Shown here: in pieces, positions 182 to 46,616 of the stretch
Layout of the letters: each line of letters starts with the position of its first letter
How positions within the stretch are numbered: position 1 is the first letter of the stretch
From: Magnetococcales bacterium DCbin2
GTDB taxonomy: Bacteria; Pseudomonadota; Magnetococcia; Magnetococcales; UBA8363
DNA: 46,617 nucleotides
Assembly: GCA_002753615.1 (NCBI GenBank)
Contig: PEAO01000007.1
Location: forward strand, 1-46,617
Reading direction: 5' to 3'
The notes under the pieces: model-generated
Database searches by the model: none
Seen by the model: only the letters and a program-made list of their open reading frames with translations
What the model was told of the DNA's origin: nothing
Program-made: the position numbers and the translations under genes

Positions 182-1702
182 TTGAAAGTTCTTTTGTTTT
201 CGATGCAAAAAGATACCGAGGGACTGGGGCTGAAGTTCATCCATTATGATCTATTGGCCCAGGGACATGATTCCAGCATCCTTTTTCTGCCGCGTTTCCA
301 TCTGGAAAGTGTCGGAAGGCGGCAGGAACTCAAACGTTTCATCGACACCCACGCCCCTGGTCTGGTCGGTGTCAGTCTCATGTCCCAGGAGTACGAGAAG
401 GCCCGTATCCTAACCCGGTTTTTGAAAGAATATGTTCCCTCCCTGCCTGTTATCTGGGGGGGCATTCACCCGACGATCGATCCGACCTCATGTCTGGAGG
501 AGGCCGATTACGTCTGCATCGGTGAAGGGGAACAAACCATGCGGGAGGTATGCGCTCTCCTGGACCGTAACCAACCGATCACCGGAGTTGGCAATCTGTG
601 TTACCTGGAACAAGGGACGTTACGACGCAATCCACTTTATCCCCTGCTCGCTAACCTCGACACGTTGCCAAGCTACGAACATGTGGCGCATAACAGTTTT
701 ATTCTGCATCGGGAGACCATCCAACCCCTGACACCCCAGATCAATCGGCACTATGCCCCCTATCTGGGTCGAACCTATAGTGTCTTGAGTTCCCGTGGCT
801 GTCCATTCGCCTGTAGCTACTGTTGTAATTCGTTGTTCAATCAACTCTATCAGGACAAAAAAATCCGCCGACGTAGCGTGGAACACGTCATTCAAGAATT
901 GGAACGGGCCATCCGCGACTATCCTGAACTCAAAATGATCAATATTCAGGACGACTGCTTTCTAGCCTATAACATCAAACAAGTCCGCCAGTTTTTCGCA
1001 GAGTATAATCGTCGGATCGGCTTACCTTTTATCGTGCATGTCATTCCCACCTATCTGACCGAAGAGAAGATGGTGGTTCTCAAGGAGTCTGGGCTGGCTT
1101 GGATCGTTTTGGGATTGCAAAGTGGCAGTGACCGGGTATTGCGAGATATTTATCAGCGCAAATCCTATCGCCGCCATTTTCTCCAGGCCGCAGCCCTTGT
1201 ACATCACTATCAGGTGGCGGGTATCTACGACGTGATTATGGACAATCCCCTGGAAAACGAGGAGGATACCATCGCCACCATTGAAACCTTCATGGAGACC
1301 CCCAAACCCTTCATGCCGGAAATCTTCTCGTTAAGCCTCTATCCGGGAACAAAGATCCACGATCTGGCCAAATTGGCCGCCAAGACGGACGCCGTGGAGG
1401 ATTATCGCAAAAAAAGTTACCTCGTCTATCGCAAGACCGTCCTGAACCATTTGACCCGTCTGGCCGCCTTTTCCAGTCGGTCCATGGTCGCCCCCTTGCT
1501 GCACCTTTATCGTCAATCACCCAACTCCTGGCAGTTTCGGGCGTTGTTGCTGGCCGCCCGCGCTCTCAACTTTCTCGTGATCGAACCTGTAACCTATTTT
1601 CGCATGATCAAGCTTTCCCAAGGGGGTTCTTTATCGCGGGCACTGCGCACTGTCCCCTTGTACGTCAAGGAAGGTGGGCAGCGTTTCTTGGACCAGTTCT
1701 AA
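182..1702 (+). CDS. B12-binding-domain radical SAM protein
   Basis: A 506-residue protein. Residues ~1-130 form a cobalamin-binding-like Rossmann domain (GLVGVSLMS, then IWGGIHP and GEGEQT, typical of the BchE/HpnR-like class). Residues ~200-400 form a radical SAM barrel with the 4Fe-4S motif Cys207-x3-Cys211-x2-Cys214 (GCPFACSYC). Family members use SAM to start radical methylations or rearrangements on lipids, sugars or antibiotics; the substrate here is unknown. The start is TTG at 182, chosen because GGAGAG (172-177) sits at good spacing. It opens the plus-strand glycan run, and its stop overlaps the first possible start of the next gene by one base. A second protein of this architecture is encoded at 19277-20740 beside another set of sugar genes, so a role in modifying a glycan or its lipid carrier is reasonable inference. 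Confidence 0.85.
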   Translation: MKVLLFSMQKDTEGLGLKFIHYDLLAQGHDSSILFLPRFHLESVGRRQELKRFIDTHAPGLVGVSLMSQEYEKARILTRFLKEYVPSLPVIWGGIHPTIDPTSCLEEADYVCIGEGEQTMREVCALLDRNQPITGVGNLCYLEQGTLRRNPLYPLLANLDTLPSYEHVAHNSFILHRETIQPLTPQINRHYAPYLGRTYSVLSSRGCPFACSYCCNSLFNQLYQDKKIRRRSVEHVIQELERAIRDYPELKMINIQDDCFLAYNIKQVRQFFAEYNRRIGLPFIVHVIPTYLTEEKMVVLKESGLAWIVLGLQSGSDRVLRDIYQRKSYRRHFLQAAALVHHYQVAGIYDVIMDNPLENEEDTIATIETFMETPKPFMPEIFSLSLYPGTKIHDLAKLAAKTDAVEDYRKKSYLVYRKTVLNHLTRLAAFSSRSMVAPLLHLYRQSPNSWQFRALLLAARALNFLVIEPVTYFRMIKLSQGGSLSRALRTVPLYVKEGGQRFLDQF

Positions 1703-1722
1703 TGTCGGGAGGTCAGCCAGTC

Positions 1723-2571
1723 ATGTCGAAAACGCGCGTCGCGGTCGTCATGCCCGGCTTCAACGTCGGCCCCACGGTGGCGCGGGCGTTGCTAGCCCTG
1801 GAGCCTTTCGTGGGGGATGGAATCGACGCGGTGATTTTTATCGACAACAACAGCTTGGACGACACCCGAGCAAGGGTGGGACAGATACAGACCCACAATC
1901 CGGTTCTAGGGCCAGTGCTGACCCGGATCGAAAATGCCCGGAATCACGGCTACGGCGGCAGCATGAAGATTGGACTGGCTTATGTCCTGAAGCAGGATTT
2001 CACCCATTGCCTGTTTCTCCACAGCGATGACCAGGGAGACAACACCCAGATCGCCGCCGATTTTCTGAAAGTTTTGCGCAACGATCCCGAGGTGGGAGTG
2101 ATTCTGGCCAGCCGCTTTCACCCCCAAGCGCAGGTCAGTGAGTACAGTCTGATCCGTCTTGTGGGCAATCGTTTTTTCAACCTCCTGATCCGTTTCGTCA
2201 CAGGGGTACGTCAAAGCGACCCTGGAACCGGCATCACCGGTATGCAAACCCGCCTTGCCAAAGAGGCACCTTATCCCCATTTCAGCAACGGCCTATTTTT
2301 CAACCTGATGCTGAATGTTTTTCTGCTGCAAAAGCGGGAAGTGCGTTGTGTAGAGACCCCGTTGCACTGGGTTGATTCCAGTATTGGTTCCACGGTGGTA
2401 CCCTGGCATCATGTGATCACCATGTTCACCTTGCTATTGGGCTATGGTGTGCGTCGGCTGCGGGGACACCCTGGTTTTGTTGACCCGCACAGCCCCCCCC
2501 GTACCCATTGGCTGGAAGACTATCCCCATGCCATTTTTTCACCTTACCCTAACCATAAAGGCCAAACGTGA
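1723..2571 (+). CDS. Family 2 glycosyltransferase (copy A)
   Basis: About 282 residues with a GT-A fold. N-terminal VVMPGFNV is followed by the nucleotide-binding FIDNNS segment and an acidic HSDDQGD stretch at the usual place of the metal-binding DxD. A conserved C-terminal part contains TPLHWVDSSIGS and a WLEDYPH ending. No multi-pass membrane region is seen, so it probably works at the inner face of the cytoplasmic membrane. It most resembles dolichyl-phosphate-mannose-synthase-like GT2 enzymes. ATG 1723 is preferred over ATG 1702 because GGGAGG (1707-1712) lies ten bases before it. It is a clear paralogue of the gene at 8292-9161, matching along its full length. Acceptor and donor sugar are unknown. 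Confidence 0.85.
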   Translation: MSKTRVAVVMPGFNVGPTVARALLALEPFVGDGIDAVIFIDNNSLDDTRARVGQIQTHNPVLGPVLTRIENARNHGYGGSMKIGLAYVLKQDFTHCLFLHSDDQGDNTQIAADFLKVLRNDPEVGVILASRFHPQAQVSEYSLIRLVGNRFFNLLIRFVTGVRQSDPGTGITGMQTRLAKEAPYPHFSNGLFFNLMLNVFLLQKREVRCVETPLHWVDSSIGSTVVPWHHVITMFTLLLGYGVRRLRGHPGFVDPHSPPRTHWLEDYPHAIFSPYPNHKGQT

Positions 2572-3083
2572 AAGCGTTCATACTCGATGTCGATGGTGTC
2601 ATGACCGATGGGAAATTCTACTATTCCCAGGAAGGAAAAATCATGAAACAGTTTGGCCCCGATGATAACGATGGGCTATCGCTTCTGAAACCATATATTG
2701 AAATATGTTTTGTTACAGGTGACCGTAAAGGATTTGCTATCAGCAAAAAAAGAATTGAAGATGACATGAAATTTCCATTACATTTGGTCAGCACCATTCG
2801 CCGAGTCGAATGGATTGCACAGCATTATCCCCTGGATCAGGTCATTTATATGGGGGATGGTATTTTTGACCACTACGTCATGAAAAAAGTCGCTTATTCC
2901 ATTGCCACAGCCGATGCCGACCCCTTGGCACGCCACTGTGCCAACTATGTTACCCAACGGTCTGGAGGCAACCGGGCTGTCGCAGAGGCGTGCCTGCACG
3001 TTCTGGAACGATTCTTCCAACCCTATAACCCGGATGCGTTGCCTGACGAACAAATCAAACTTTCGGGAGAGTGGGCGGTATGA
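2568..3083 (+). CDS. KdsC-like HAD phosphatase
   Basis: A 171-residue HAD-superfamily protein of the cap-less C0 type, typical in length for 3-deoxy-D-manno-octulosonate-8-phosphate phosphatase (KdsC). Motif I is LDVDGVMTDG, with nucleophile Asp7 and acid/base Asp9. VTGDR follows, and motif IV is MGDGIFD. KdsC-family enzymes remove phosphate from 8-phospho-KDO or from 9-phospho-sialic-acid-like sugars. No KDO or nonulosonate synthase is in the window, so the true substrate may be another sugar phosphate made by neighbours. GTG start at 2568 overlaps the preceding stop by four bases, which suggests translational coupling. Family call is firm; substrate is inference. Confidence 0.8.
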   Translation: MKAFILDVDGVMTDGKFYYSQEGKIMKQFGPDDNDGLSLLKPYIEICFVTGDRKGFAISKKRIEDDMKFPLHLVSTIRRVEWIAQHYPLDQVIYMGDGIFDHYVMKKVAYSIATADADPLARHCANYVTQRSGGNRAVAEACLHVLERFFQPYNPDALPDEQIKLSGEWAV

Positions 3084-4243
3084 TTCGGCGCAAACTGGAG
3101 TCTTTCACTGCCAATCGCCGCTGTACGTTGCTCGGTGTCGGCCCCATGAGCCTCAATTGTGTCAACGCGGCCATCGAGTTAGCCAATGAACATGACTCGC
3201 TGATCATGCTGGTGGCCAGTCGGCGACAGATTGATTCCGCAGACTTCGGCGGCGGTTATGTTAACCATTGGTCAACCGAACAGTTTGCCGAATATGTCAT
3301 CCAGAAAGATAAAAAAGGTCGGGTTGTCATCGCCAGAGACCATGGTGGTCCGTGGCAGAACGACAAAGAAAAACAAGGGCAACTGAGCCTGCGCCAAGCG
3401 ATGAACTCTGCAAAAAAGTCTTTTAAAACCGACATAGAATCGGGTTTTGACATGATCCATATCGATCCCAGCATCGATATCCATGGAACACCAGATGTCG
3501 ATGAAGTTTTACAGCGTATCTTTGAGCTTTATGAATACTGTTGGAGTGTTGCCCAAGAGAATAAACGTAATATTCTTTTTGAAATTGGAACCGAAGAGCA
3601 AAGTGGTGCCACCCATCATATCGACTATTTGGCCTACGTCCTGAAGAAAGTCAAAACATTTTGTGAACAAAACGGATTGCCCAATCCGACGTTCGTCGTC
3701 TCCCAAACAGGTACTCGTGTCATGGAAACCAGAAATGTCGGTTCCTTTGAATCTCCCGTGCGTCTCCCATATGAATTACCCGCAGGCATTCAGGTTCCCA
3801 GAATCGTTGACCTTTGTGATCAGCATGGCGTCTGGCTCAAAGAACATAACACCGATTATCTTTCCGATGAAGCACTCTCCTGGCATCCCAAACTTGGAAT
3901 CCACGCCGCAAATGTCGCCCCTGAATTTGGCGTCGCGGAAACAAAAGCCTTTATTACGTTAATGAACCACAATGGGCACCGCAAGGAACGTGATGATTTT
4001 CTGGATCTTGCCTTTAATTCCAGAAAATGGGAAAAATGGATGATGCCGCAGACCCATGCCGATGATACGATGCGTGCTATTATCGCCGGTCATTATGTTT
4101 TTTCCGATCCGTTGTGTATCGAAATCAAGAACAAGGTCCAATCGAAAATTCCAGATATCGTCATCGATGATTTTCTTAGAAATTCAGTAAAAAACAAGAT
4201 ATTACGCTATATGAAGTTTTTTCACCTGACGAGGTCCCAGTGA
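3080..4243 (+). CDS. GatZ/KbaZ-like class II tagatose-bisphosphate aldolase family protein
   Basis: About 387 residues resembling the so-called non-catalytic subunit of D-tagatose-1,6-bisphosphate aldolase (GatZ/KbaZ/AgaZ). Visible are a DHGGP segment, HIDPSIDI, FEIGTEEQSG and VSQTGTRV, which line up with the conserved strand ends of this TIM-barrel family, plus several His/Glu residues able to bind metal. In enteric bacteria the protein stabilises GatY/KbaY in galactitol or N-acetylgalactosamine breakdown. No GatY/KbaY partner is encoded here, and the gene sits in a biosynthetic glycan run, so it may act alone as an aldolase that makes or splits an unusual sugar phosphate (inference). ATG 3080 overlaps the previous stop as ATGA, with GGGAG just upstream. 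Confidence 0.75.
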   Translation: MIRRKLESFTANRRCTLLGVGPMSLNCVNAAIELANEHDSLIMLVASRRQIDSADFGGGYVNHWSTEQFAEYVIQKDKKGRVVIARDHGGPWQNDKEKQGQLSLRQAMNSAKKSFKTDIESGFDMIHIDPSIDIHGTPDVDEVLQRIFELYEYCWSVAQENKRNILFEIGTEEQSGATHHIDYLAYVLKKVKTFCEQNGLPNPTFVVSQTGTRVMETRNVGSFESPVRLPYELPAGIQVPRIVDLCDQHGVWLKEHNTDYLSDEALSWHPKLGIHAANVAPEFGVAETKAFITLMNHNGHRKERDDFLDLAFNSRKWEKWMMPQTHADDTMRAIIAGHYVFSDPLCIEIKNKVQSKIPDIVIDDFLRNSVKNKILRYMKFFHLTRSQ

Positions 4244-5067
4244 AAAAAAACACCGCGACCATCATCCTGAACCGGAACCTTCCGGCGGTGACCGATGGTC
4301 TTTACGATTCCCTGACGCGCAACAATGGGCATGTGACCGATGTGTTCGTTGTCGAAGCGGGTTCCGACGATGATAAGCTATCCCGGAATTGTTCGTGGCA
4401 CGCCAACTGGGAGCAGGCACGCAAGGAGGGCTTGCGACCGCCTCGTGGATTCAATTTTGGCTTGACCAAACTTTGGGAGGCGGGAAAATTCGCCCAGTAT
4501 GATTATTTTTTCCTTCTGACCAACGATACCGAGTTTGACAACAGCCCCTACCTGGAAATTTTATTGGATGAACTGGAACACCATCCCCGCGTCGGTATTA
4601 TTTCGCCGTGTTCCAAAAATTGGGGTGAGTGGTTTCTGCTCAAAGAACAAACGACGCTCTATTTTTGGTATGTACTCAACACCGCATTGCTTTTGCGAAG
4701 AGAGTTTATTGAATCGGTCATGACCCCAGATCAACCCGATTATCATAATTTCCTCTATGATGGCACCAATTTTAGGGGATACGGGACGGAGTTGGAATTG
4801 GTTGCCAAAGGTTATGCCAATGATTGGGCAACCGCCCTGACGCGCCGGGTATGGTCGGAAGAAAACGAAAGCTATCTCCAGACACAACATCACCTCATCA
4901 ATACCGAGGCCTACCATGACAATCTGCGTATGGCCGTCGAAGAAGGTGAACAGTGGATGCGCCGAAAATATGGTTTCAAAAGCCGATGGAACATGCAACT
5001 CTACTCAAAAAGCTTCTATGATCTTTTTTTCAGATTTTTCCCTGAATACCGAAAATACAGGATATAA
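4240..5067 (+). CDS. Glycosyltransferase, GT2-like
   Basis: A 275-residue protein with GT-A features: an N-terminal ATIILNRNLP strand-loop, VVEAGSDDD, then FFLLTNDTEFDN, where the NDTEFD stretch sits at the DxD position. GIISPCSKN and an aromatic-rich acceptor region follow. No membrane helix is obvious. GTG at 4240 overlaps the stop of the GatZ-like gene as GTGA. It differs from the other two GT2 genes of this run, which suggests at least two different linkages are made. Donor and acceptor are not predictable from sequence. Confidence 0.7.
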   Translation: MKKNTATIILNRNLPAVTDGLYDSLTRNNGHVTDVFVVEAGSDDDKLSRNCSWHANWEQARKEGLRPPRGFNFGLTKLWEAGKFAQYDYFFLLTNDTEFDNSPYLEILLDELEHHPRVGIISPCSKNWGEWFLLKEQTTLYFWYVLNTALLLRREFIESVMTPDQPDYHNFLYDGTNFRGYGTELELVAKGYANDWATALTRRVWSEENESYLQTQHHLINTEAYHDNLRMAVEEGEQWMRRKYGFKSRWNMQLYSKSFYDLFFRFFPEYRKYRI

Positions 5068-5086
5068 GCCATTGTCGATCCATTGC

Positions 5087-5458
5087 ATGAAAACACATCT
5101 TGGGATAATCACGGATATGCCCGTTGTGGAAAAACCCTGGGGCCGTGAGATTCTGATCGTGTGCAACCAACACTACGCCTTCAAACGCATTGAAATGATT
5201 GCGGGAACCCGTTCTTCATTGCAATCCCACGAACGCAAGGTGGAAACCATCCTGATACACTCGGGAAATATCCGGCTGGAGATTGGCAACACCCCGGACA
5301 CGTTGGAGATCAGAGATTATGGTCCCAACGAAGCCTATCATGTCGAACCGGGCATCGTACACCGCGTGACGGTGCTGACCGATTGTACGCTCTTTGAGGT
5401 TTCCACCCCAGAGCTGCAAGATGTCATACGCCATGCCGATGATTACAACAGGATATAG
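5087..5458 (+). CDS. Cupin, mannose-6-phosphate isomerase type II-like
   Basis: About 120 residues forming one double-stranded beta-helix. VEKPWGREIL near the N terminus is the signature of the isomerase half of PMI-GMP enzymes. SLQSHERKVET and EPGIVHRV supply the likely metal-binding His and Glu residues. It may interconvert mannose-6-P and fructose-6-P or another ketose/aldose pair for the nucleotidyltransferase encoded next. The start is uncertain: TTG 5072 (AGGA nine bases upstream), ATG 5087 or ATG 5117 (GGGATAA upstream, and closest to the family's usual start). The gap to the next gene is four bases. Confidence 0.75.
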   Translation: MKTHLGIITDMPVVEKPWGREILIVCNQHYAFKRIEMIAGTRSSLQSHERKVETILIHSGNIRLEIGNTPDTLEIRDYGPNEAYHVEPGIVHRVTVLTDCTLFEVSTPELQDVIRHADDYNRI

Positions 5459-5462
5459 ACAG

Positions 5463-7049
5463 ATGAAGGGATGCATTCTGGCAGCCGGCCAGGGGAGTCG
5501 CATGGGGCCGATGGGCGATGTGACCCACAAGGCGTTGCTGCCTCTGGGCAATCAGGCGATCATTTCCCATATCATCCGTGCTTTGGGACCACATTTGTCC
5601 TATGTTGTCGCGGTCTCCCCCGAACGTGGTGATGCCATTCGCGATTATCTTGCCCTGGCACACCCCGACCTTGATGTGGCATTCGTCACCGTAAAGCACC
5701 ACGCGGGTCCAGGTTCGGGGCCTGGTCAATCGCTGTACGAATGCCGCCATCTGCTGCAAGAACCATTCTACTTTGTTGCCTGCGACACCATTGTGACGCA
5801 ACCGCTTCCCGATTGCGATGAAAATTGGCTTGGCATCAAGGCAGTCGCCGACCCCGCACGGTTCTGTACCGTCGTATTGGACCATCAACAACAAGTCACT
5901 GCCGTAGAAAACGGTGGCATCCGCTCCAATCAAGCGTTTATCGGGTTGGCATTCGTTAAGGATTACATCCCATTTTGGGAAGCCCTGGCCCACGATGCCT
6001 CGCTACACAAAGGGGAAAAACAGGTCAACCAGGGGTTGGCCGGATTGATTCCCCACCGATTGCGGGGAATACCCATGGCATGGTTGGATACAGGCACCGA
6101 AGAAAGCTATCGGCAGGCGTTGGAAAAGTTTGAGAAAAATCTTACTTTTTATGGAAAAACCACCGACATCACTTATCGGTTTGATGATAAGATCATTAAA
6201 TATTTCAAGCCCGATGGCGTAGCCAGGAGACGATTTGAACGGGGTAAAAATCAACCGGGAGTCTTTGTGGAAACGTTGGAAGCACGTGGTTGTTTCTTCA
6301 GCACCCGATTTATCCAAAACGCCCGCTTATTTTCCGCTGCGCTAAACCACAGTGCCACGTTACGTTTTCTTCAATGGGTTCAGGAAAACCTGTGGCAACG
6401 GAGGGAACCGGAAGCAGGCGATTTTTCGGAAGCCTGTACTCTTTTTTACGCCGACAAAACCATCGCCCGATTGGTCGCCTATGACAAACGCTTTCCAGAA
6501 CACGAAAGCAACGCCAACATGATCATCAATGGTCGTTCCTGTCAGCCGGCAAGAAAGTTGATGGCACGACTCCTCCCCGCTTTTTACACCACAGGGATTG
6601 CGTCGGGCTACCACGGGGATCTTCATGGTGACAACATCCTCATCGATGCGCAGGGAGACTATCGACTCATTGACTGGCGTGATGGCTTTGGCCCGTTGAC
6701 CCATGTTGGTGATCTCTATTATGACCTCGCCAAATTTCTCCATACGCTGGAGTTGAGCGTCGAAGTCATGGACACCGGGAACTATGCGTTAACCCATCAC
6801 ACTGGGGAAGTTCACTTAGAACACCGGATTTCCTGGAGTCAACTGGACGCCTTGATGGGATTCGATGAATTTGTCCAACGCAACGGATACAATCCACGTC
6901 GCATCCGCATCATCGATGCCTTGATTTTTTTAAACATGGCACCGCTCTACGACGATACGATGGCGGTGTATCTCTATCATTTGGGACGTTATCTTCTACA
7001 GGGAATGGCCGATCAGGATCATGGACAACAGTTTTTCCAATCAACATAA
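5463..7049 (+). CDS. Bifunctional sugar nucleotidyltransferase-kinase fusion
   Basis: A 528-residue fusion. Residues 1 to ~235 are a GT-A-fold nucleotidyltransferase starting with CILAAGQGSRMG, the NTP-binding loop, with THKALLPL downstream. Residues ~245-528 are an aminoglycoside-phosphotransferase/choline-kinase-like domain with the catalytic loop HGDLHGDN near residue 384 and the metal-binding IDWRD about twenty residues on. Such a pair would phosphorylate a sugar or amino alcohol and then activate it as an NDP derivative, as LicA/LicC or AmgK/MurU do as separate proteins. ATG 5463 is chosen because the nucleotide-binding loop must be N-terminal and AGGAT lies eight bases upstream. The last 29 bases overlap the methyltransferase gene. 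Confidence 0.82.
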   Translation: MKGCILAAGQGSRMGPMGDVTHKALLPLGNQAIISHIIRALGPHLSYVVAVSPERGDAIRDYLALAHPDLDVAFVTVKHHAGPGSGPGQSLYECRHLLQEPFYFVACDTIVTQPLPDCDENWLGIKAVADPARFCTVVLDHQQQVTAVENGGIRSNQAFIGLAFVKDYIPFWEALAHDASLHKGEKQVNQGLAGLIPHRLRGIPMAWLDTGTEESYRQALEKFEKNLTFYGKTTDITYRFDDKIIKYFKPDGVARRRFERGKNQPGVFVETLEARGCFFSTRFIQNARLFSAALNHSATLRFLQWVQENLWQRREPEAGDFSEACTLFYADKTIARLVAYDKRFPEHESNANMIINGRSCQPARKLMARLLPAFYTTGIASGYHGDLHGDNILIDAQGDYRLIDWRDGFGPLTHVGDLYYDLAKFLHTLELSVEVMDTGNYALTHHTGEVHLEHRISWSQLDALMGFDEFVQRNGYNPRRIRIIDALIFLNMAPLYDDTMAVYLYHLGRYLLQGMADQDHGQQFFQST

Positions 7050-24726: not shown

Positions 24727-26739
24727 TCAATGAGTCGAAATATAGTCGGGTACCCACAGTACGGCATCATCCACACGGGTCATGGCGGAAACCGGACCAT
24801 CGTGAGAAAGGACAAAGGCCACCGCCCCTGGATAACGGGCGACGAAATCCACCGCCGATCCGTGACGGGTGCCGTACTTCGACCGGTCTACTTCATGACG
24901 GGACGTAGAACCATCGCGGTAATCGTAGACGACCTTTCCATGCCAAGTATTGGCTGCCAGAATCGCTCCAAAAGAGAGCGGTTTAAGGCGATGCGAGATG
25001 AGAACCGCACCATCGATGCGCGTCAAATGAGATAAAAATTCGGTATGTTCAATCATCCTCCTTTTAACATCCAACAATGCCCTGCCGATCATTTTAAGGT
25101 CAGTTTGATCACACGGAACGCTTGAAGATTCACCGATTCCTTGTCTCTTGATCTCCAATTGACAATATTCACTGATGATACCAACACCTTCTTGACTCTT
25201 CTTTAGAGGGAATCGCTCTGTCAGAGATTCCTGGGTTTTGATGGTATAGGCTTCCGGTAGCCAGATGACCGTTCCGCCCGTACTATCTTCTGCAGAACGT
25301 GCCAGCAACAACAGCAGCACCGAACGATAAACCTCCCAATAAAGATCGCCGGATGCCTTGTGTTCCGGGTGATTGGTGATGGTACTGATCAACGTGTTGG
25401 CAATGATACAGTTTTCAAACGGGTCTGCCACCGGTTCGGAAAAATGCCCCGCCTGGAAATGGGCCAGCATTTTCCCCCCCCAGCGGATCAATAAGGAGCC
25501 AGCTTTCCGGGTTATGATCGTCAAAACCTGGACCGGGCTTTTTTGCAAAGGGAACGGGTCCAGCATCCCTTTCCCACGGGTGCTGGCAAACATCGCCCCC
25601 CAGATCTCCAGGCTTTTTGGATGGCCCGGTTTGGCGCGGACAAACAATGATGTCGTTGCCGAGTCGAAACCTGGCCCCAGTTTCACCAAAGAATCGACGG
25701 TAAAAGGGACTGGAGAGTTGAAGCGGATGAAGGGAGAGTTAAACCCCGGCGTATTCACAATCAAGGATTCATCACCCAAGGCGACACCGACTTTGACAGG
25801 TAAATCTTCTTCCCGACGCAACCCAGCAAGAAAAACATTTTCCATGATGGATTTGACGTGGTGGAAGCCCAATAAACCCGCCGCTTGGGGATGAACACGA
25901 TTGGCCAACGCCAAAATCTGGTCAACGATATGGGAATCAAAAAGGGCCAGACCTTCCTGCCCCCCCAAAGCTTTTTTTCGTTCACTAATATCCCGGATCA
26001 TCGCCGAGAAGAATATTTTTTTCCCAGCCTGCCAGTGGGTAATGGATATTTCCATGGGAAATTCATCATGATTCTTTCTGAGACCCAACAGTTCCAGGAG
26101 TCTCCCCGCCATTTTGGGCCGTCCGGTCTCACGAACCCGAGATAACGCTTCGCAATGTTGGCTGACAAACCGCAGTGGCATCAATAAAGTGAGGGGGCGT
26201 CCCAGCACCTCATCTTTGGAATAACCAAAGATTAACTCGGCACCCCGATTCCAAAAAACAATGTTGCCATAACCATCCGCCGTAATGATGGCATCATTCT
26301 GAGAATCGGTCGCCAGACGAATTTGCTCTTCTTTTTCCCGAAGTGCCAGAAATGACGACTTGTGACGCAAAATGCGCCGCATCCGTTGCCTAAGAAGATC
26401 CCAATTGATGGGTTTTGGAATATAGTCTTCGGCACCCGCCTGGAATACGCGATTGATTGCATCGCCGCTGGAAAGGGAGGTGACAATCATCACCGGCGTA
26501 TCATTTCCTCCTGGAAGGGATTTCAGTTTGCGACACGTTTCAAATCCATCCATGGCCGGCATTTGAGCATCCATCAAAACCAAATCGGGATGGTGTTGTT
26601 CAAAAAGTGTCAATCCATCCAGGCCGTTGTCTGCCAACAAAACCGAAAACCGGTTGTCTTTGAGAAACGCCTCCAGGAGTTGCAGAATGACAACATCGTC
26701 ATCCACAATGAGAATTAAATTGCCGTCATGCTCCACCAT
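24727..26739 (-). CDS. REC-PAS-diadenylate cyclase (DAC) response regulator
   Basis: A 670-residue protein. Residues ~8-125 are a receiver (LVLMDAQMPAMDG, KPINW). Residues ~135-262 are a PAS domain (NDAIITADGYGNIVFWN, FGYSKDEVLGRPL). Residues ~285-540 form a sensor-like region without a clear match, similar in position to the DACNV-type domains that precede DAC domains. Residues ~555-665 resemble the DisA/CdaA nucleotide cyclase fold, with the DGA motif (RIDGAVLI, ~575) and GTRHGSA (~623), which stands where DisA has TRHRAA. If active it would make c-di-AMP from two ATP under phosphorelay control. The third RHR residue is Gly, so activity must be tested. GGA lies ten bases before the ATG. Confidence 0.8.
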   Translation of the reverse strand: MVEHDGNLILIVDDDVVILQLLEAFLKDNRFSVLLADNGLDGLTLFEQHHPDLVLMDAQMPAMDGFETCRKLKSLPGGNDTPVMIVTSLSSGDAINRVFQAGAEDYIPKPINWDLLRQRMRRILRHKSSFLALREKEEQIRLATDSQNDAIITADGYGNIVFWNRGAELIFGYSKDEVLGRPLTLLMPLRFVSQHCEALSRVRETGRPKMAGRLLELLGLRKNHDEFPMEISITHWQAGKKIFFSAMIRDISERKKALGGQEGLALFDSHIVDQILALANRVHPQAAGLLGFHHVKSIMENVFLAGLRREEDLPVKVGVALGDESLIVNTPGFNSPFIRFNSPVPFTVDSLVKLGPGFDSATTSLFVRAKPGHPKSLEIWGAMFASTRGKGMLDPFPLQKSPVQVLTIITRKAGSLLIRWGGKMLAHFQAGHFSEPVADPFENCIIANTLISTITNHPEHKASGDLYWEVYRSVLLLLLARSAEDSTGGTVIWLPEAYTIKTQESLTERFPLKKSQEGVGIISEYCQLEIKRQGIGESSSVPCDQTDLKMIGRALLDVKRRMIEHTEFLSHLTRIDGAVLISHRLKPLSFGAILAANTWHGKVVYDYRDGSTSRHEVDRSKYGTRHGSAVDFVARYPGAVAFVLSHDGPVSAMTRVDDAVLWVPDYISTH

Positions 26740-26836: not shown

Positions 26837-27550
26837 TCAGCGCACCGCCACCAAGTCTACCAACTCTTCCTGGGAAAAGGGATCTTTATTGAGCAGAGGA
26901 AGCGATTTTTCACCCGCACCCTTGGCAAAGTTTTCGGAAAAGGAGATTTGCGCAACCATTTGCAACATCTCCGGGTCCAGGTCGGACCAGAGGGGATCAT
27001 AGGGGCGGGAATATTGACCGGAGGGGTTGACCTGGGATGAAACTTGGCTGGTTTCATCCCCTCCCATATTTATGTCCATCAGTTCCTGGACCACGTCTGC
27101 TGTCTCCAGTTTTGCAACCGGTATGGAAAATCGAAGGCCACTGGATGATTCAGGGAGCCATGATAGCGCGACGGTAAAAGAACCTGTGGAAATAGAAGCG
27201 GCCTTCGTCATGGTTTCTGGCAATATAGGATTGGAACTTGGCGACAAACGATAGCGTTCCAAAATAAGACCACCCTGGAATGCGGCAATGGCCACCAGGG
27301 CAAGCAACGATACCTTGCCTATTGGGGCGAATGACGACAAACTTTTTTTTGGGAATTCGTGGCATCGGATCTCTGGGGGATCCGAATTGCCGACCACATT
27401 GGGGTCCAAGAAAAAGTCGCGCTCGTCCATCAGTTCGGGCAGTTCGGGCAGTTCGGGCAGTTCGGGCAGTTCGGTCTGTCCCGCACTCATTGGCCAAGCA
27501 ACATCCGTTGGCAGTTGGCCCAAACAATGCTTACCTTCTATTATTTCCAT
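26837..27550 (-). CDS. Single-pass membrane protein with (ELP)n repeat, unknown function
   Basis: A 237-residue protein that I do not recognise. Residues ~27-40 are an ELPELPELPELPEL run coded by a 9-base tandem repeat. Residues ~78-97 (VSLLALVAIAAFQGGLILER) form the only hydrophobic helix. The rest, likely periplasmic, is polar, with a Ser-rich part and a C-terminal acidic tail. GGGGGA stands just before the ATG at 27550. It is 97 bases upstream of the REC-PAS-DAC gene on the same strand, so the two may share a transcript. The position suggests a membrane partner for the cyclase, which is inference only. Confidence 0.6.
   Translation of the reverse strand: MEIIEGKHCLGQLPTDVAWPMSAGQTELPELPELPELPELMDERDFFLDPNVVGNSDPPEIRCHEFPKKSLSSFAPIGKVSLLALVAIAAFQGGLILERYRLSPSSNPILPETMTKAASISTGSFTVALSWLPESSSGLRFSIPVAKLETADVVQELMDINMGGDETSQVSSQVNPSGQYSRPYDPLWSDLDPEMLQMVAQISFSENFAKGAGEKSLPLLNKDPFSQEELVDLVAVR
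27431..27475 (+). repeat. 9-bp tandem repeat inside the ELP-repeat gene
   Basis: Five tandem copies of the 9-mer CAGTTCGGG, the last ending in T instead of G, read on the minus strand as repeated Glu-Leu-Pro codons. The copies are identical at the base level, which implies recent expansion or ongoing slippage. Because the unit is a multiple of three, copy-number change would lengthen or shorten the protein without a frameshift. Confidence 0.95.
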
Positions 27551-27748
27551 CTTTTCCCCCTACCGTGAATATCACCCTGACTTAACAATCATCTCGTGAG
27601 TAAAGCAATTGTCGCGCCAGGGAAAAGATTAACCCTTGAAAAATTGTCGGCGGCAGAGGAGAGTGCAACCGCATGACCATCTTGTGTACGTGTGGTTTCC
27701 TCCTCTTTACCAAACATGAAATACTTTGACTTCTTCAAAGGAGCGACC

Positions 27749-28723
27749 ATGAGCCAGAACCACCCCTGCCCCGGACCGGATCTGGAAGAATATTGGCGAT
27801 ATGACCATCTTATCAAATCCTGTTCCCCTGTAACGCCCCTGCATACCGCCATCATCCACCCTTGTGACCACGACTCTTTGATGGGTCCGGTCCAGGCCGC
27901 CAATGCCCATTTAATCATCCCCTATCTCATCGGCCCCATCTCGCGGATTCAACGCACTGCCGATGAAGCGGAAATTGATATTTCCGCCTTTAAAATTATC
28001 GATGCCAAACACAGTCACCATGCCGTCGAAATCGCCGTCGAAATGGCCCTGAGCGGTGAGGTGGAAGCCTTAATGAAAGGGAGTTTGCACACCGATGAAA
28101 TCATGGGAAGAGTGGTCAAAAAGACGAATGGTTTACGTACCGAACGCCGCATCAGTCATGTTTTCTTGATGGACATCCCCGATTTTCCCAGGCCCCTGCT
28201 GATTACCGATGCCGCCATCAACATTGCCCCAACCCTGGCGACCAAGGTTGATATCTGTCAAAACGCCATCGATCTGGCCATTTCCATGGGGATTGCCAAC
28301 CCCAAGGTTGCAATTCTTTCGGCGGTGGAAACGGTGAATCCCGATATGCAATCGACCCTGGATGCCGCAGCGTTGTCCAAAATGTCGGATCGTGGGCAGA
28401 TTGTTGGCGGCATTGTGGACGGACCCTTGGCTTACGACAATGCCGTAAGCCTGGAAGCGGCGCAAACCAAAGGGATCAAAAGTCTTGTCGCTGGACATGC
28501 CGATATCCTGGTCGCCCCCGATCTGGAGTCGGGAAACATGCTGGCCAAACAACTGACCTGGCAGGCGCATGCCGACGGTGCCGGAATCGTTCTCGGGGCC
28601 AAAGTTCCCATTATTCTCACCAGCCGTTCCGATAGTATCCGTACCCGCATGGCTTCCGTGGCGGTCGCTTCGCGGGTGGTGGATGCACGTAAAAAAGGGT
28701 TGTTGCGCAAAGGAAAGACCTGA
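27749..28723 (+). CDS. pta: Phosphate acetyl/butyryltransferase
   Basis: About 324 residues, the size of the stand-alone PTA_PTB domain. Seen are EALMKGSLHTDEIM, the arginine-containing RTERRISHVF, LLITDAAINIAP, KVAILSAVETVNPDMQSTLDAA, IVDGPLAYDNAVS and DILVAPDLESGNML. The enzyme swaps phosphate for CoA on acetyl- or butyryl-CoA in the cytoplasm. Together with acetate kinase, six bases downstream, it forms the acetyl-phosphate pathway for ATP gain or acetate uptake. ATG 27749 is chosen because AAAGGAG lies just upstream; the frame runs back to 27692 without support. Acetyl versus butyryl specificity cannot be told from sequence. The acetyl phosphate made could also phosphorylate receiver domains. 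Confidence 0.88.
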   Translation: MSQNHPCPGPDLEEYWRYDHLIKSCSPVTPLHTAIIHPCDHDSLMGPVQAANAHLIIPYLIGPISRIQRTADEAEIDISAFKIIDAKHSHHAVEIAVEMALSGEVEALMKGSLHTDEIMGRVVKKTNGLRTERRISHVFLMDIPDFPRPLLITDAAINIAPTLATKVDICQNAIDLAISMGIANPKVAILSAVETVNPDMQSTLDAAALSKMSDRGQIVGGIVDGPLAYDNAVSLEAAQTKGIKSLVAGHADILVAPDLESGNMLAKQLTWQAHADGAGIVLGAKVPIILTSRSDSIRTRMASVAVASRVVDARKKGLLRKGKT

Positions 28724-28728
28724 ATATT

Positions 28729-29904
28729 ATGGAACAACAAAATTTTGCCGTCATCAATGCCGGATCTTCAAGTCTGAAATTTTCATTGTTTGCCGCGACG
28801 CCCGCCGGGCCGGTCCGCCGCATTCGCGGTCAAATCGCCGAGATCAACTCTGCCCCGATTTTTTCCGCCCGCATCGGTACGCATTCGGCGGAGCCTGATC
28901 GTCTTCTTGGAGAATCCTACTCCGGGCATCACCGTTGCCTGGATTTTTTGTTGGCGTGGCTGGAACAACATGCCCAGGTTCACGCCGCCGGACATCGGGT
29001 CGTTCATGGTGGCTTGCATTTTTCTCAGCCTGTCGTATTGAATACCGCCATCATCAAAGAATTGGAAACCTTGATTCCGCTGGCCCCCCTGCACCAACCC
29101 CATAACCTTCAACCCATACATGCCCTGGCTAGGCTCCATCCCGGGTTGATGCAGGTCGCCTGCTTTGATACTGCGTTTCATGCTTCCAAAAGAAAAGAGG
29201 CGCAACAGTTTCCATTACCAGCCACACTTAAAGATGCGGGGGTCCGACGGTACGGATTTCATGGTCTGTCGTATGAGTACATTGCCATGAAACTCAAGGA
29301 AGTTGATCCCGCTCTTGCCCCAAAACGTGTCGTTGTCGCCCATCTGGGAAATGGGGCCAGCATGTGCGCACTTCATCAGGGTAAAGCGGTAGATTCCACC
29401 ATGGGTCTAACGGCAGCCGATGGTTTACCCATGGGAACCCGTTCGGGATCATTGGATCCGGGGGTTGTGTTTTTCATGGCGCGAGAAATGAATATGTCCC
29501 TGGATACTATCGAGGATATCCTATATCGGCAATCGGGCCTTAAGGGACTCTCCGGTCTTACCCATGACATGCGCCTTCTGGAACAATCCAACGATCCCCA
29601 GGCCCATGGAGCCATTGATCTTTTTGTTTACCGCATTCAGCAACAGTTTGGTGCCTTAAGTGCTTCCCTCGGTGGTATCGACGGTGCAGTCTTCACTGCG
29701 GGTATTGGTGAAAACTCCAGCTTGGTCCGTGGTAAAATCTTGAAAGGACTTCAATGGTTAGGATTTGAACTTGATGATCAGGCCAATGCAACCCATGCCA
29801 CCTGCATTACCACCCGGCAATCAAACATTCCCGCTTATGTAATCCCCACCGATGAAGACCTGATGATCGCGCACCATGTCCAACAAATCCTGTCATCTCG
29901 TTGA
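28729..29904 (+). CDS. ackA: Acetate kinase
   Basis: A 391-residue ASKHA-fold kinase. FAVINAGSSSLKFSLF is the N-terminal phosphate-binding motif, HRVVHGG follows, RRYGFHGLSYEYI is a family signature, and HLGNGASMCALHQGKAVDSTMG with PMGTRSGSLDPGV marks the active site; FTAGIGENS closes the ATP site. It converts acetyl phosphate plus ADP to acetate plus ATP, reversibly. Length and motifs are normal. It lies directly after the phosphotransacetylase gene and 13 bases before the PFTS-motif gene, so all three probably share a transcript. Confidence 0.95.
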   Translation: MEQQNFAVINAGSSSLKFSLFAATPAGPVRRIRGQIAEINSAPIFSARIGTHSAEPDRLLGESYSGHHRCLDFLLAWLEQHAQVHAAGHRVVHGGLHFSQPVVLNTAIIKELETLIPLAPLHQPHNLQPIHALARLHPGLMQVACFDTAFHASKRKEAQQFPLPATLKDAGVRRYGFHGLSYEYIAMKLKEVDPALAPKRVVVAHLGNGASMCALHQGKAVDSTMGLTAADGLPMGTRSGSLDPGVVFFMAREMNMSLDTIEDILYRQSGLKGLSGLTHDMRLLEQSNDPQAHGAIDLFVYRIQQQFGALSASLGGIDGAVFTAGIGENSSLVRGKILKGLQWLGFELDDQANATHATCITTRQSNIPAYVIPTDEDLMIAHHVQQILSSR

Positions 29905-29917
29905 TTAGGAATATACA

Positions 29918-31660
29918 GTGGGCACGGTATACAAGAAAATTATTATTCGTAGATATCGCAAATGGCTTCGGGGATGGCGGCGGGAGATTGAACACGGCTA
30001 CCCACTGAATATTGCCTTGCTTGCGATTCTTGAAAAAAATCAAAAGAACATCGCCTCTGTACGCTGGTCCGGTATCCTACCCAAAGGTGTCACTGAAATG
30101 GCCGCCGAGGCGTGTTTGCGGCAGGTTATCTTCAACTATGTACGATTATCCCCAGAGATGAGTCGATCCATCGTTGGATACCAAACTGGATGCGATCAAA
30201 GACTGGCCCTGTCACTTCCCAAATCATGGCTCAAAGTCCTCGAAGGTGAAGGTTGTCGCATTTCCTGGTTTCAATGCAGATGGTTATTTTTTCGGTGGGT
30301 TGTGACGCGGTATCTCCAGGGGGGACGGTCCGTATTCCACACTCTAAAAATGCTTCTCCTTTCTCAAGCCACGAGTGCCTCAAGGCCATACGGTGTGCTT
30401 GTGCATATGGGGCAGGTTCATTGGCCTCAGAGAAATGACGCCGTCAGCCCGCGTGACGCAGTTTCCTGGTACAAGGGTTGGAAAGGAAGGGATCCACAAA
30501 TCGAAGAAATCTGGGTACATGTCACCCGATCCACCGGTGAATGTCATCACAAAAATGTCACATTGGTCACCCACGAACTTCCCCTCCCCCAACTTTCTTC
30601 AAGATTTCACGGTCTCCAGGTTGCGACAGAACTTCTATGGTTGACCGCAACGTCTGGATTGGCCATGTTCGCAGGGCGGTGGCACGGTGCCGTCATGTTG
30701 CGGGAGCTTGCCCATGCGGTTTACGGAAGCCATTTGCCCGATCGTTCTTGGGGGCGTGAATACCTTTTTAATAATTCCATGCCGTTTTTCCGTCCGCTTT
30801 GGACATACCTGGCAGAGAATGCCGGAGCGCGGGTTTCATTATTTCATTACAGTGCCAATTCGCTAGCCATATTTCCCGACAGACCCCCGGAAGCCCTGCC
30901 TGGTAATGGTGAAGGGATAGCCAATTGGTCGCACTATATCACGATGAGTGAACATCATAAACAAGAACTGATCAAAGCCCGCAGCACCCAGGTTCCTGTT
31001 GACATCGATCCGTTTATTTCAATAAGCGATAATGGCCAATCATTGGGTTCAAAAGATTTATCACACGCCGTCGCCTTATTTGATATTTCAGGTTGGCGAC
31101 CGCTGTTTTTGGCTCGTTTGGGAAGCAGTGGGCTGTATTATCGACCTTCCACAATCAACGGTTTTTTACAAACGTCCATTCAATTATTATCGGAGCGCGG
31201 ATTGACAGCCGCCTACAAATCCAAGAGAAAAATACTCACGACTCGTTGGGAGCTATCAAAGTCTTACATCAATCTGAAAAAAAGCTTTGAGAACAACCCT
31301 GATGTCATTATCATCGATCCAGGCATTACTGCCCTGCGCGTGATCGAATGCTGTTGTGCTGTAATCTCCGTACCATTCACCTCTACCGCGATCATTGGCA
31401 AAGTGTTAGGAAAACCCTCGGTATATTTCGACCCCATAGGGACCATCTCTTCTTCCACCCCTTTGGTTCACGGTGTCCCCGTTGTCAGTGGTGAAAAAGA
31501 ACTTGCGCAATGGTTGGATCGGGAGGTTTTGCCACACCTTGCAACCTCCAACGCCCCGAGGCCAAACCAATCCCCTGACTTAACTCATGTTGAACCATCC
31601 AGGGAAGATAAAATCATGTCGGTTTTATCGGCTAATAATTCCGCCTCGGCATGGGAATAG
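29918..31660 (+). CDS. PFTS-motif polysaccharide biosynthesis protein
   Basis: A 580-residue protein. The segment SVPFTSTAIIGKVLGKPSVY near residues 485-505 is the signature of PFTS-motif proteins found in polysaccharide gene sets. The nearby VIIIDPGITALRVIECC resembles the donor-binding half of GT-B transferases such as the CMP-Kdo or sialyltransferase type. The N-terminal ~300 residues are basic, aromatic-rich and not recognised. GTG 29918 is supported by AGGAAT six to seven bases upstream. It follows acetate kinase by 13 bases, an odd pairing of metabolism and surface glycan. Its last 76 bases overlap the convergent PilZ gene. A role as a glycosyltransferase is likely but not shown. Confidence 0.7.
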   Translation: MGTVYKKIIIRRYRKWLRGWRREIEHGYPLNIALLAILEKNQKNIASVRWSGILPKGVTEMAAEACLRQVIFNYVRLSPEMSRSIVGYQTGCDQRLALSLPKSWLKVLEGEGCRISWFQCRWLFFRWVVTRYLQGGRSVFHTLKMLLLSQATSASRPYGVLVHMGQVHWPQRNDAVSPRDAVSWYKGWKGRDPQIEEIWVHVTRSTGECHHKNVTLVTHELPLPQLSSRFHGLQVATELLWLTATSGLAMFAGRWHGAVMLRELAHAVYGSHLPDRSWGREYLFNNSMPFFRPLWTYLAENAGARVSLFHYSANSLAIFPDRPPEALPGNGEGIANWSHYITMSEHHKQELIKARSTQVPVDIDPFISISDNGQSLGSKDLSHAVALFDISGWRPLFLARLGSSGLYYRPSTINGFLQTSIQLLSERGLTAAYKSKRKILTTRWELSKSYINLKKSFENNPDVIIIDPGITALRVIECCCAVISVPFTSTAIIGKVLGKPSVYFDPIGTISSSTPLVHGVPVVSGEKELAQWLDREVLPHLATSNAPRPNQSPDLTHVEPSREDKIMSVLSANNSASAWE

Positions 31661-32987: not shown

Positions 32988-34922
32988 CTACACCCCCAGG
33001 AAGCGACGCAAACGCGGCAACAGATCCTGAGACGCCATGGGTTTCGTGATAAAATCATAGGCACCCATCTGGAAAGCCTTCTGCCGGGTCGCCATATTCT
33101 CATCCGAGGTGATCAAGATGGTAGGAATAGACTTGAGTTTGGGGTCCGACTTCATTTTTCCTAAAAACTCAAAACCATTCATCCCCGGCATTTGAATATC
33201 ACAGATCACCAGATGGTAACGGTTGGCATTCAGCAATGACAACCCCTTTTCCCCAGTATCGCTGATGTCCAGTTGTACCCCCTCCTTGGTAAAATAGTGT
33301 TCAAACAGATTTCTGGAATCGGGATCGTCGTCTACAACCAGAATTCTGGGAATAACTTCCGGCAAGACAACAAAGAAAATACTTCCCTTGCCCGGACTCG
33401 ATTCCACCCTGAGCGAACCACCATGGGCTTTGACGATATCCATGCTGAAAGGGAGGCCAAACCCGGTCCCCGACTCCCCTGCGGTACCAATGGTCGATGT
33501 TTTTTCTTCCAATTTGAATAAATTACCAATCTGTTCTAGGGTGATGCCAACCCCTGTATCCCTGACTGCCAGGGCATTGGGTTGCCCCTCTGGGTTGAAC
33601 AAGGTGATGGTCCCGCCACGCGAGGAAAATTTGACGGCGTTGGAAACCAAATTTTGCACCACCTCCCCGATCAAGTTGGGATCTGCAAAAAAACGTGCTG
33701 TTTCAGTTACATCATTGATCAGGGCAATCCCCTTTTGCGTCGCTAATGGTGATAAATTGGAAAAAACCCTTTCGACCATAAAGCGTATATTGATAAATAC
33801 CGGCTCAATGGAAATCTTGCCCGTTTTAAAGCGGCTGATATTCAACAATTCATCAATCATGCGTAGCATTTTCTGACAACTGTCCACAACCCAGCGCAAA
33901 AACCCCCTTTGTTTATCACTGAGGGGGTTTCCCTTATCTTTTTCCATCAACTCCAGAAAACCGAGGATCGTCGTGAACGGGCCGCGCAAATCATGCGCCA
34001 CCAGGGATACAAAACGATCCTTGAGACGGGTGGATCGTTCCGCTTCTTCTTTGGCACGACGCAGAAACAGTTCATTGCGGCGGTAGAGGGTTATATCCCT
34101 GGGGATGACGATGGTGTGCCATCCCATGGAATGACGAAACCGGGCTATAGATGCGGCAACGGATAAAAATCTTCCATCTTTCTTCTTGACGACAAATTCA
34201 CTGACCTTGCCGATCAAGGCCCCGGTTCCTGTTTGTTGGAAATGGGGAAATGTTTTGATTATTTTTCTTTTAAATGAAGAGGAAGGGAGAAGACAATAGA
34301 TTTCCCTGCCAATGATTTCCTCTTCCGAATAGCCGAAGGTTCGTTGAGCAGCGGGATTCCAATAAGTGACCCTCGCCTCATGGTCAACCATGATGATGGG
34401 ATCATGGGCGGTCGAAGTGATGGCAGTAAGTTTTTCCTGGGCCGCCTGAAGCTCCATCGTCCGTTCCTTGACGCGCCTTTCCAGGGTTTCCTTGGCTTCT
34501 TGCAGGGCGTGGTGGGCGGCATCCAGGGCACGGTTGGTTTTAACCTTGGCCACGGTGTTGTGGATAACCCGATTGATGGCCTCGATACTGAGATCATCTT
34601 TACTCAGGTAGTCGTCGGCACCGGCGCGGAGGGCTTCAACCAATGCGGTCTCACCCGTCTGGCCCGTAAAGAGAATCATTCCTGATCGACAACCCGATTC
34701 CTTGAGTCTGCGAATCAGATCGGTGCCAAATTCTCCTTTTAAGCGAAAATCAATAAAGGCAACATCGGGCATCTTGCCACACACACACGAAACGGCTTCT
34801 GCTCCCGTGGAGCAAGAGGTAATGGCAATGTTCCAAGGGCGAATTTTTCCCAACAAACCGGCCAGCAGTTTTCGCTCCACAGGGTTATCGTCCACGATCA
34901 GGACTTCGAGTGCCGTATCCAT
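32988..34922 (-). CDS. Hybrid histidine kinase, REC-PAS-HisKA-HATPase-REC
   Basis: A 644-residue soluble hybrid kinase. REC1 is at ~7-125 (VAFIDFRLKGE), a coiled coil at ~130-165 and a PAS domain at ~165-285 (DPIIMVDHEARVTYWNPAA). HisKA has phospho-acceptor His in LVAHDLRGP near residue 307. The HATPase has the N box (NLVSNAVKFS), DTGVG and GTGFGLPF. REC2 is at ~528-640 (VICDIQMPGMNGFE). No membrane helix is present, so the input is cytoplasmic, probably through REC1 and the PAS domain. It lies 23 bases after the PBP stop on the same strand, so it may be co-transcribed with cell-wall synthesis. No obvious output regulator is adjacent. Confidence 0.92.
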   Translation of the reverse strand: MDTALEVLIVDDNPVERKLLAGLLGKIRPWNIAITSCSTGAEAVSCVCGKMPDVAFIDFRLKGEFGTDLIRRLKESGCRSGMILFTGQTGETALVEALRAGADDYLSKDDLSIEAINRVIHNTVAKVKTNRALDAAHHALQEAKETLERRVKERTMELQAAQEKLTAITSTAHDPIIMVDHEARVTYWNPAAQRTFGYSEEEIIGREIYCLLPSSSFKRKIIKTFPHFQQTGTGALIGKVSEFVVKKKDGRFLSVAASIARFRHSMGWHTIVIPRDITLYRRNELFLRRAKEEAERSTRLKDRFVSLVAHDLRGPFTTILGFLELMEKDKGNPLSDKQRGFLRWVVDSCQKMLRMIDELLNISRFKTGKISIEPVFINIRFMVERVFSNLSPLATQKGIALINDVTETARFFADPNLIGEVVQNLVSNAVKFSSRGGTITLFNPEGQPNALAVRDTGVGITLEQIGNLFKLEEKTSTIGTAGESGTGFGLPFSMDIVKAHGGSLRVESSPGKGSIFFVVLPEVIPRILVVDDDPDSRNLFEHYFTKEGVQLDISDTGEKGLSLLNANRYHLVICDIQMPGMNGFEFLGKMKSDPKLKSIPTILITSDENMATRQKAFQMGAYDFITKPMASQDLLPRLRRFLGV

Positions 34923-46520: not shown

Positions 46521-46616
46521 GGTTTTGATTTTGGTTTTGATTTTGGTTTTGATTTTGGTTTTGATTTTGGTTTTGATTTTGGTTTTGATTTTGGTTTTGA
46601 TTTTGGTTTTGTTTTT
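46521..46616 (+). repeat. 12-bp tandem repeat GGTTTTGATTTT
   Basis: Seven perfect tandem copies of GGTTTTGATTTT (46521-46604) and an eighth altered copy (GGTTTTGTTTTT) reach the window end. The strand is purely G/T apart from one A per unit. It directly extends the tail of the stem-loop repeat, so it probably grew from that tail by slippage. The true length is unknown because the window stops inside or just after it. Confidence 0.95.

Follow-up and report, generated by a model that had tools for sequence, protein, structure and literature searches.

Can a bacterial response regulator make cyclic di-AMP (c-di-AMP)? The question is raised by a gene in a stretch of 46,617 nucleotides (hereafter the window) from Magnetococcales bacterium DCbin2 (contig PEAO01000007.1). 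The open frame at 24727–26739 on the minus strand begins with an ATG, which we number as residue 1, and encodes a 670 amino acid protein in which Pfam domains outline a receiver (REC), a PAS domain, a DACNV domain and a C-terminal region resembling diadenylate cyclases (DACs). The diadenylate cyclases known so far are regulated through DNA structure, through partner proteins or through their membrane context, and we know of none in which a response regulator has c-di-AMP synthesis as its output. A literature search found no description of a REC-linked DAC, of c-di-AMP synthesis as a response-regulator output, or of c-di-AMP in Magnetococcales. We propose, with a probability of roughly 0.55, that the window protein is a response-regulator-controlled c-di-AMP synthase of the DACNV-DAC family, with catalysis, product and control by REC all predicted. 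We regard the protein as a real, conserved, REC-linked member of this family, and the earlier observation on this frame is confirmed.

The REC domain (26380–26715, minus strand; PF00072, 99.9 bits, E 1.2e-28) has all the residues expected of a response regulator: the acidic pair D13/D14, the phospho-acceptor Asp57 (26569–26571), T87 at the Thr/Ser position and the lysine K109. All are invariant in an alignment of 22 REC forms, which bears out the receiver domain claimed in the first-pass annotation. The phosphorylation site is complete and, judging by these residues, should be phosphorylation-competent. The PAS domain follows at 25987–26322 (minus strand; PF00989/PF13426; PAS_9 E 1.6e-13). All 13 of its PDB matches at E ≤ 1e-8 are the heme-PAS proteins FixL or DosP, which makes these oxygen sensors its nearest solved PAS structures by sequence. 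His195 (26155–26157) is aligned with the heme-ligand histidine of FixL, whereas the distal arginine of FixL is replaced by leucine. His195 is not retained in the second group of REC paralogs. An oxygen input through this PAS domain is possible. The order given in the first-pass annotation (REC and PAS ahead of a sensor region and a DAC-like domain) agrees with both Pfam and the predicted fold. Its guess at a probable proteobacterial host was also right: the genome belongs to Magnetococcales, and the 52 homologs found in a contig search are all labelled Magnetococcales or Candidatus Magnetaquicoccus.

The central sensor region had been described as unassigned over approximately 250 residues. 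It includes in fact an already named domain, the probable sensor domain DACNV (25594–25860, minus strand; PF21751, E 7.7e-12, 45.7 bits against a gathering cut-off of 27), which a genome search places at the same position. The DAC-like domain lies C-terminal to DACNV, and the window protein is homologous to stand-alone DACNV-DAC proteins across the full length. This arrangement is already known and named in Bacteroidota. DACNV is present in 43 of 48 Magnetococcales genomes and was not found in any of the roughly 351 others sampled from the phylum; outside the phylum it occurs on Hymenobacter plasmids, under the record name “putative sensor domain DACNV-containing protein.” No relatives were found in viral contigs. 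The Hymenobacter protein shares 22.9% identity with a stand-alone magnetococcal form (L013) over 84% of the latter's length. Like the window protein, it has DACNV followed by a divergent DAC with an SQDG/SxDG motif; unlike it, it has RHR and carries neither REC nor PAS, whereas the window protein has RHG with REC-PAS in front. The pairing of GTRHRAA with SQDG in the Bacteroidota protein forms a bridge to the canonical DACs.

Is the C-terminal domain indeed a DAC? The PF02457 profile matches it only below threshold (24781–25038; E 0.016, 15.3 bits against a cut-off of 27). By sequence this sub-threshold score would technically refute the DAC-like C terminus proposed earlier, but the fold search overrides this result. 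An AlphaFold2 model of the DACNV-DAC half (residues 258–670), built on 45 sequences, has a mean pLDDT of 85.2; confidence is lower for a model of the whole protein (mean pLDDT 76.8). When the half model is compared with the PDB by Foldseek, the first 40 matches are diadenylate cyclases (DisA, CdaA, DacA, DacM), most of them with probabilities of 0.95–1.00, and the best is 3c1y (E 1.1e-3, probability 1.00). The TM-scores are modest (0.39–0.57 by target, for single-domain CdaA/DacA matches) and the rmsd is high, consistent with an insertion that separates the GALI-like strand (residues 488–493) from the DGA motif (residues 576–578). In the model, the C terminus has the DAC fold, beginning near residue 445, ahead of where the motifs suggest; we place the divergent DAC domain at residues about 445–670 (24730–25407, minus strand). 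Sequence comparison is less sensitive here: a family profile searched against PDB sequences gave only chance matches (SEC13 and similar), and hhalign against the canonical DACs of the phylum aligned only the GTRH..VVVS stretch, at 15% probability.

The domain shares with DisA, CdaA and DacM (PF02457) the predicted DAC fold, the DGA and GTRH motifs, the conserved serine and an acidic metal ligand. It differs from them in the missing second arginine, in SxD replacing SEE and in the extra insertion between GALI and DGA. Moreover, it ends after the DAC domain, with no Pfam match to the C-terminal HhH DNA-binding domain of DisA, and has REC-PAS where CdaA has N-terminal transmembrane helices. Because it lies under the DAC profile cut-off and shows two of the DAC motifs only in altered form, we file the protein as DACNV-DAC and not as a canonical DAC. 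Those motifs are GxRHRxA, which reads GTRHGSA here (residues 623–629), and (V/I)SEE, which reads LSHDG. DACs as such are not largely restricted to Gram-positive bacteria, as had been supposed: 76 of the 399 sampled genomes of the phylum score above the DAC cut-off.

How much of the active site is left? We counted conservation over 65 Magnetococcales homologs. DGA (25006–25014), GTRHG (residues 623–627, 24859–24873; the counterpart of GTRHR) and SHDGP (residues 645–649, 24793–24807; the counterpart of (V/I)SEE), all on the minus strand, contain D576, A578, G623, R625, H626, S645, D647 and G648, each invariant (65/65), together with G577 (64/65) and T624, which is retained in all REC forms. Asp647 replaces the metal-binding glutamate in every homolog. 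The first-pass annotation had noted a glycine in place of the second arginine of RHR and took this to leave activity open. The glycine is not peculiar to this protein: that arginine is missing from all 65 homologs, so Gly627 is a trait of the lineage; decay of a single pseudo-cyclase copy was considered and rejected, since all 65 share the change and retain the other residues. Position 627 is N, A, T, S, G, H or I but never R. Stand-alone forms have N or S there, REC forms mostly A, G or T, and GAF forms mostly T (also N). In Listeria monocytogenes CdaA, the side chains that contact ATP or metal are L31, D71, T102, R103, H104, S122 and E124, and the second arginine is not listed (PMC7288161). 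By motif alignment these correspond to T490, D576, T624, R625, H626, S645 and D647: five identities, one conservative change (E124 to D647) and one substitution (L31 to T490). The ATP- and metal-site residues are retained save for the second arginine and the Glu-to-Asp change. Changing RHR to AAA kills Mycobacterium tuberculosis DacA and M. bovis CdaM (PMC3328451; PMC13022847), though these are triple mutants and do not address the second arginine alone; we found no single-residue test of it in the literature. The active site is equally conserved whether the protein carries REC, carries GAF or stands alone, a sign of purifying selection.

The source genome encodes three such proteins: the window protein and L031 both have the order REC-PAS-DACNV-DAC, and L032 has GAF-DACNV-DAC. 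In a tree of 65 proteins the 25 REC forms, from three families, make up one clade (support 99/99) and the 13 GAF forms another (97/82); nearly all other members are stand-alone proteins of 410–480 amino acids. The REC-linked form has a one-clade origin, while the root of the tree and the placement of Hymenobacter, which sits on a long branch, are unsure. The stand-alone form, which lacks REC, is the usual one in Magnetococcales, and in most families of the order no other DAC was detected. Elsewhere in the phylum, a long DAC frame in genome G110 turned out to encode an ordinary CdaA-like protein.

A c-di-AMP synthase would be expected to have a partner that removes its product, and a genome search for c-di-AMP phosphodiesterases found a candidate in the source genome, a PgpH-type protein with 7TMR-HDED, 7TM and HD domains. 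Its gene adjoins genes that, on reading their sequences, resemble phoH, ybeY and lnt. PgpH is one class of c-di-AMP phosphodiesterase (PMC12072042). Of 48 Magnetococcales genomes, 46 have the PgpH-type domain PF07697, which scores above cut-off in only one of the other approximately 351 genomes of the phylum; because Magnetococcales is one clade, this counts as one evolutionary coincidence and not many, but it does provide the partner one would expect. In the source genome no canonical DAC scores above cut-off, an absence that is weak since the assembly is only 78% complete. Neither the ydaO riboswitch nor the DarA-type receptor domain CdAMP_rec was found in the 48–49 genomes searched; TrkA_C domains are present and are unspecific as a sign of a receptor. 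Four genomes (G012, G030, G039 and G042) have PgpH and no DACNV-DAC. Three of these (G012, G039 and G042, all Magnetococcales) have no listed DAC match either, and as G039 is 93% complete, the explanation must lie in a different synthase or in a gene that is missing.

The neighborhood offers a probable operon partner. Upstream, 97 bases away on the same strand, lies a gene for a 237 amino acid protein (26837–27550, minus strand) with one hydrophobic stretch and no Pfam match; it adjoins the DAC gene in five of six congeners examined, at 34–76% identity. Its N terminus contains ELP units encoded by a perfect 9-base tandem repeat (27431–27474, 4.9 copies). The divergent neighbors, each kept in five of the six congeners, encode a phosphate acetyl/butyryl transferase (27692–28723, plus strand; PF01515, PRK08190/PRK11890) and an acetate/propionate-type kinase (28729–29904, plus strand; PF00871). 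In principle a REC might be fed by acetyl phosphate, though this is speculation. The protein encoded just downstream of the kinase gene, at 29918–31660, matches TIGR04417 (polysaccharide biosynthesis PFTS motif protein) at 142 bits, and at the end of the window lies a 12-base tandem repeat, GGTTTTGATTTT (46521–46616, 8 copies, 98% matches). A PAS-HK-REC gene at 32988–34922 was considered as the linked cognate kinase and rejected, as it is not retained beside the DAC gene in congeners; no conserved histidine kinase neighbor was seen among the congeners examined.

How might such a protein work? A histidine kinase would phosphorylate Asp57 of the REC domain. Combined with the effect of any ligands of PAS and DACNV, the signal would travel through the connecting helices and alter the packing of two protomers. 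Two DAC domains brought face to face could then join two ATP molecules into c-di-AMP, which the PgpH-type phosphodiesterase of the source genome would destroy. Catalysis, c-di-AMP as the product, control by phosphorylation and a downstream target are what we infer.

Several observations speak against a synthase: the DAC score below threshold, the 15% hhalign probability, aspartate at the position of E124 and the dead RHR-to-AAA mutants, as well as the lack of ydaO or CdAMP_rec, the four genomes with PgpH and no DACNV-DAC, and the lack of a conserved kinase neighbor. The low DAC score and the aspartate, with the missing second arginine, would also fit a DAC fold that binds ATP or c-di-AMP without catalysis; the protein would then sense nucleotides as a response regulator, or inhibit another DAC. 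REC and GAF paralogs do occur together in the same genomes, so some of them could be non-catalytic. We consider this unlikely for the window protein, as the stand-alone forms, the sole DAC detected in most families, likewise keep D576, R625, H626, S645 and D647 without exception, and if no copy were active PgpH would lack a substrate made by the cell itself.

If the domain is active, the altered RH-x and S-x-D motifs might instead mark a changed choice of substrate and a different product, e.g., a mixed or linear dinucleotide. The motif changes are fixed across the lineage and position 627 varies with architecture; however, all ATP-contacting side chains except the GALI leucine and the Glu/Asp are retained and the PgpH present belongs to a c-di-AMP phosphodiesterase class (PMC12072042), which makes another product very improbable. 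It is also conceivable, if rather improbable, that the protein is an active diadenylate cyclase not set by its REC, the real control being a DACNV or PAS ligand or localization. The abundance of stand-alone forms in the order and the lack of a linked kinase gene would agree with this, but the REC forms of three families retain all the phosphorylation residues. We therefore keep to a synthase under response-regulator control as the preferred reading.

If this reading is true, REC-DAC is the c-di-AMP counterpart of PleD. In both, a REC input is fused to a cyclic dinucleotide synthase, and the window REC is PleD-like by score; the output is GGDEF in PleD and a predicted DAC here, and the comparison concerns only the way they would work. 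C-di-AMP signaling would extend to Magnetococcales, with the pathway directly under environmental control, and a lineage naturally without the second arginine would test directly how much of RHR is needed for catalysis. It is tempting to go further, quite tentatively, and picture an order-wide c-di-AMP network of DACNV-DAC and PgpH in the magnetotactic cocci without canonical DACs, in which each cell of this genus has two synthases as outputs of two-component phosphorelays, a FixL-like PAS possibly making them responsive to oxygen, and in which catalysis can dispense with the second arginine of RHR.

Two further DAC-like proteins came to light. One, L193 (contig C69 of G030), has 358 amino acids, the motifs GARHATA and VVVSQDGP, a DAC score of 26.6 bits and no DACNV match. 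Its gene belongs to a run of four (520–6038) that also encodes two uncharacterized proteins and a ClpX-like AAA+ ATPase; the run is possibly a nucleotide-signaling conflict system, and PADLOC gives only weak ATPase matches on it. The other, L194 (contig C162 of G037, 4494–5447), has 317 amino acids and the motifs GGRHASA and VVSQDGP, the second arginine being likewise absent; its genome additionally has a DACNV-DAC protein.
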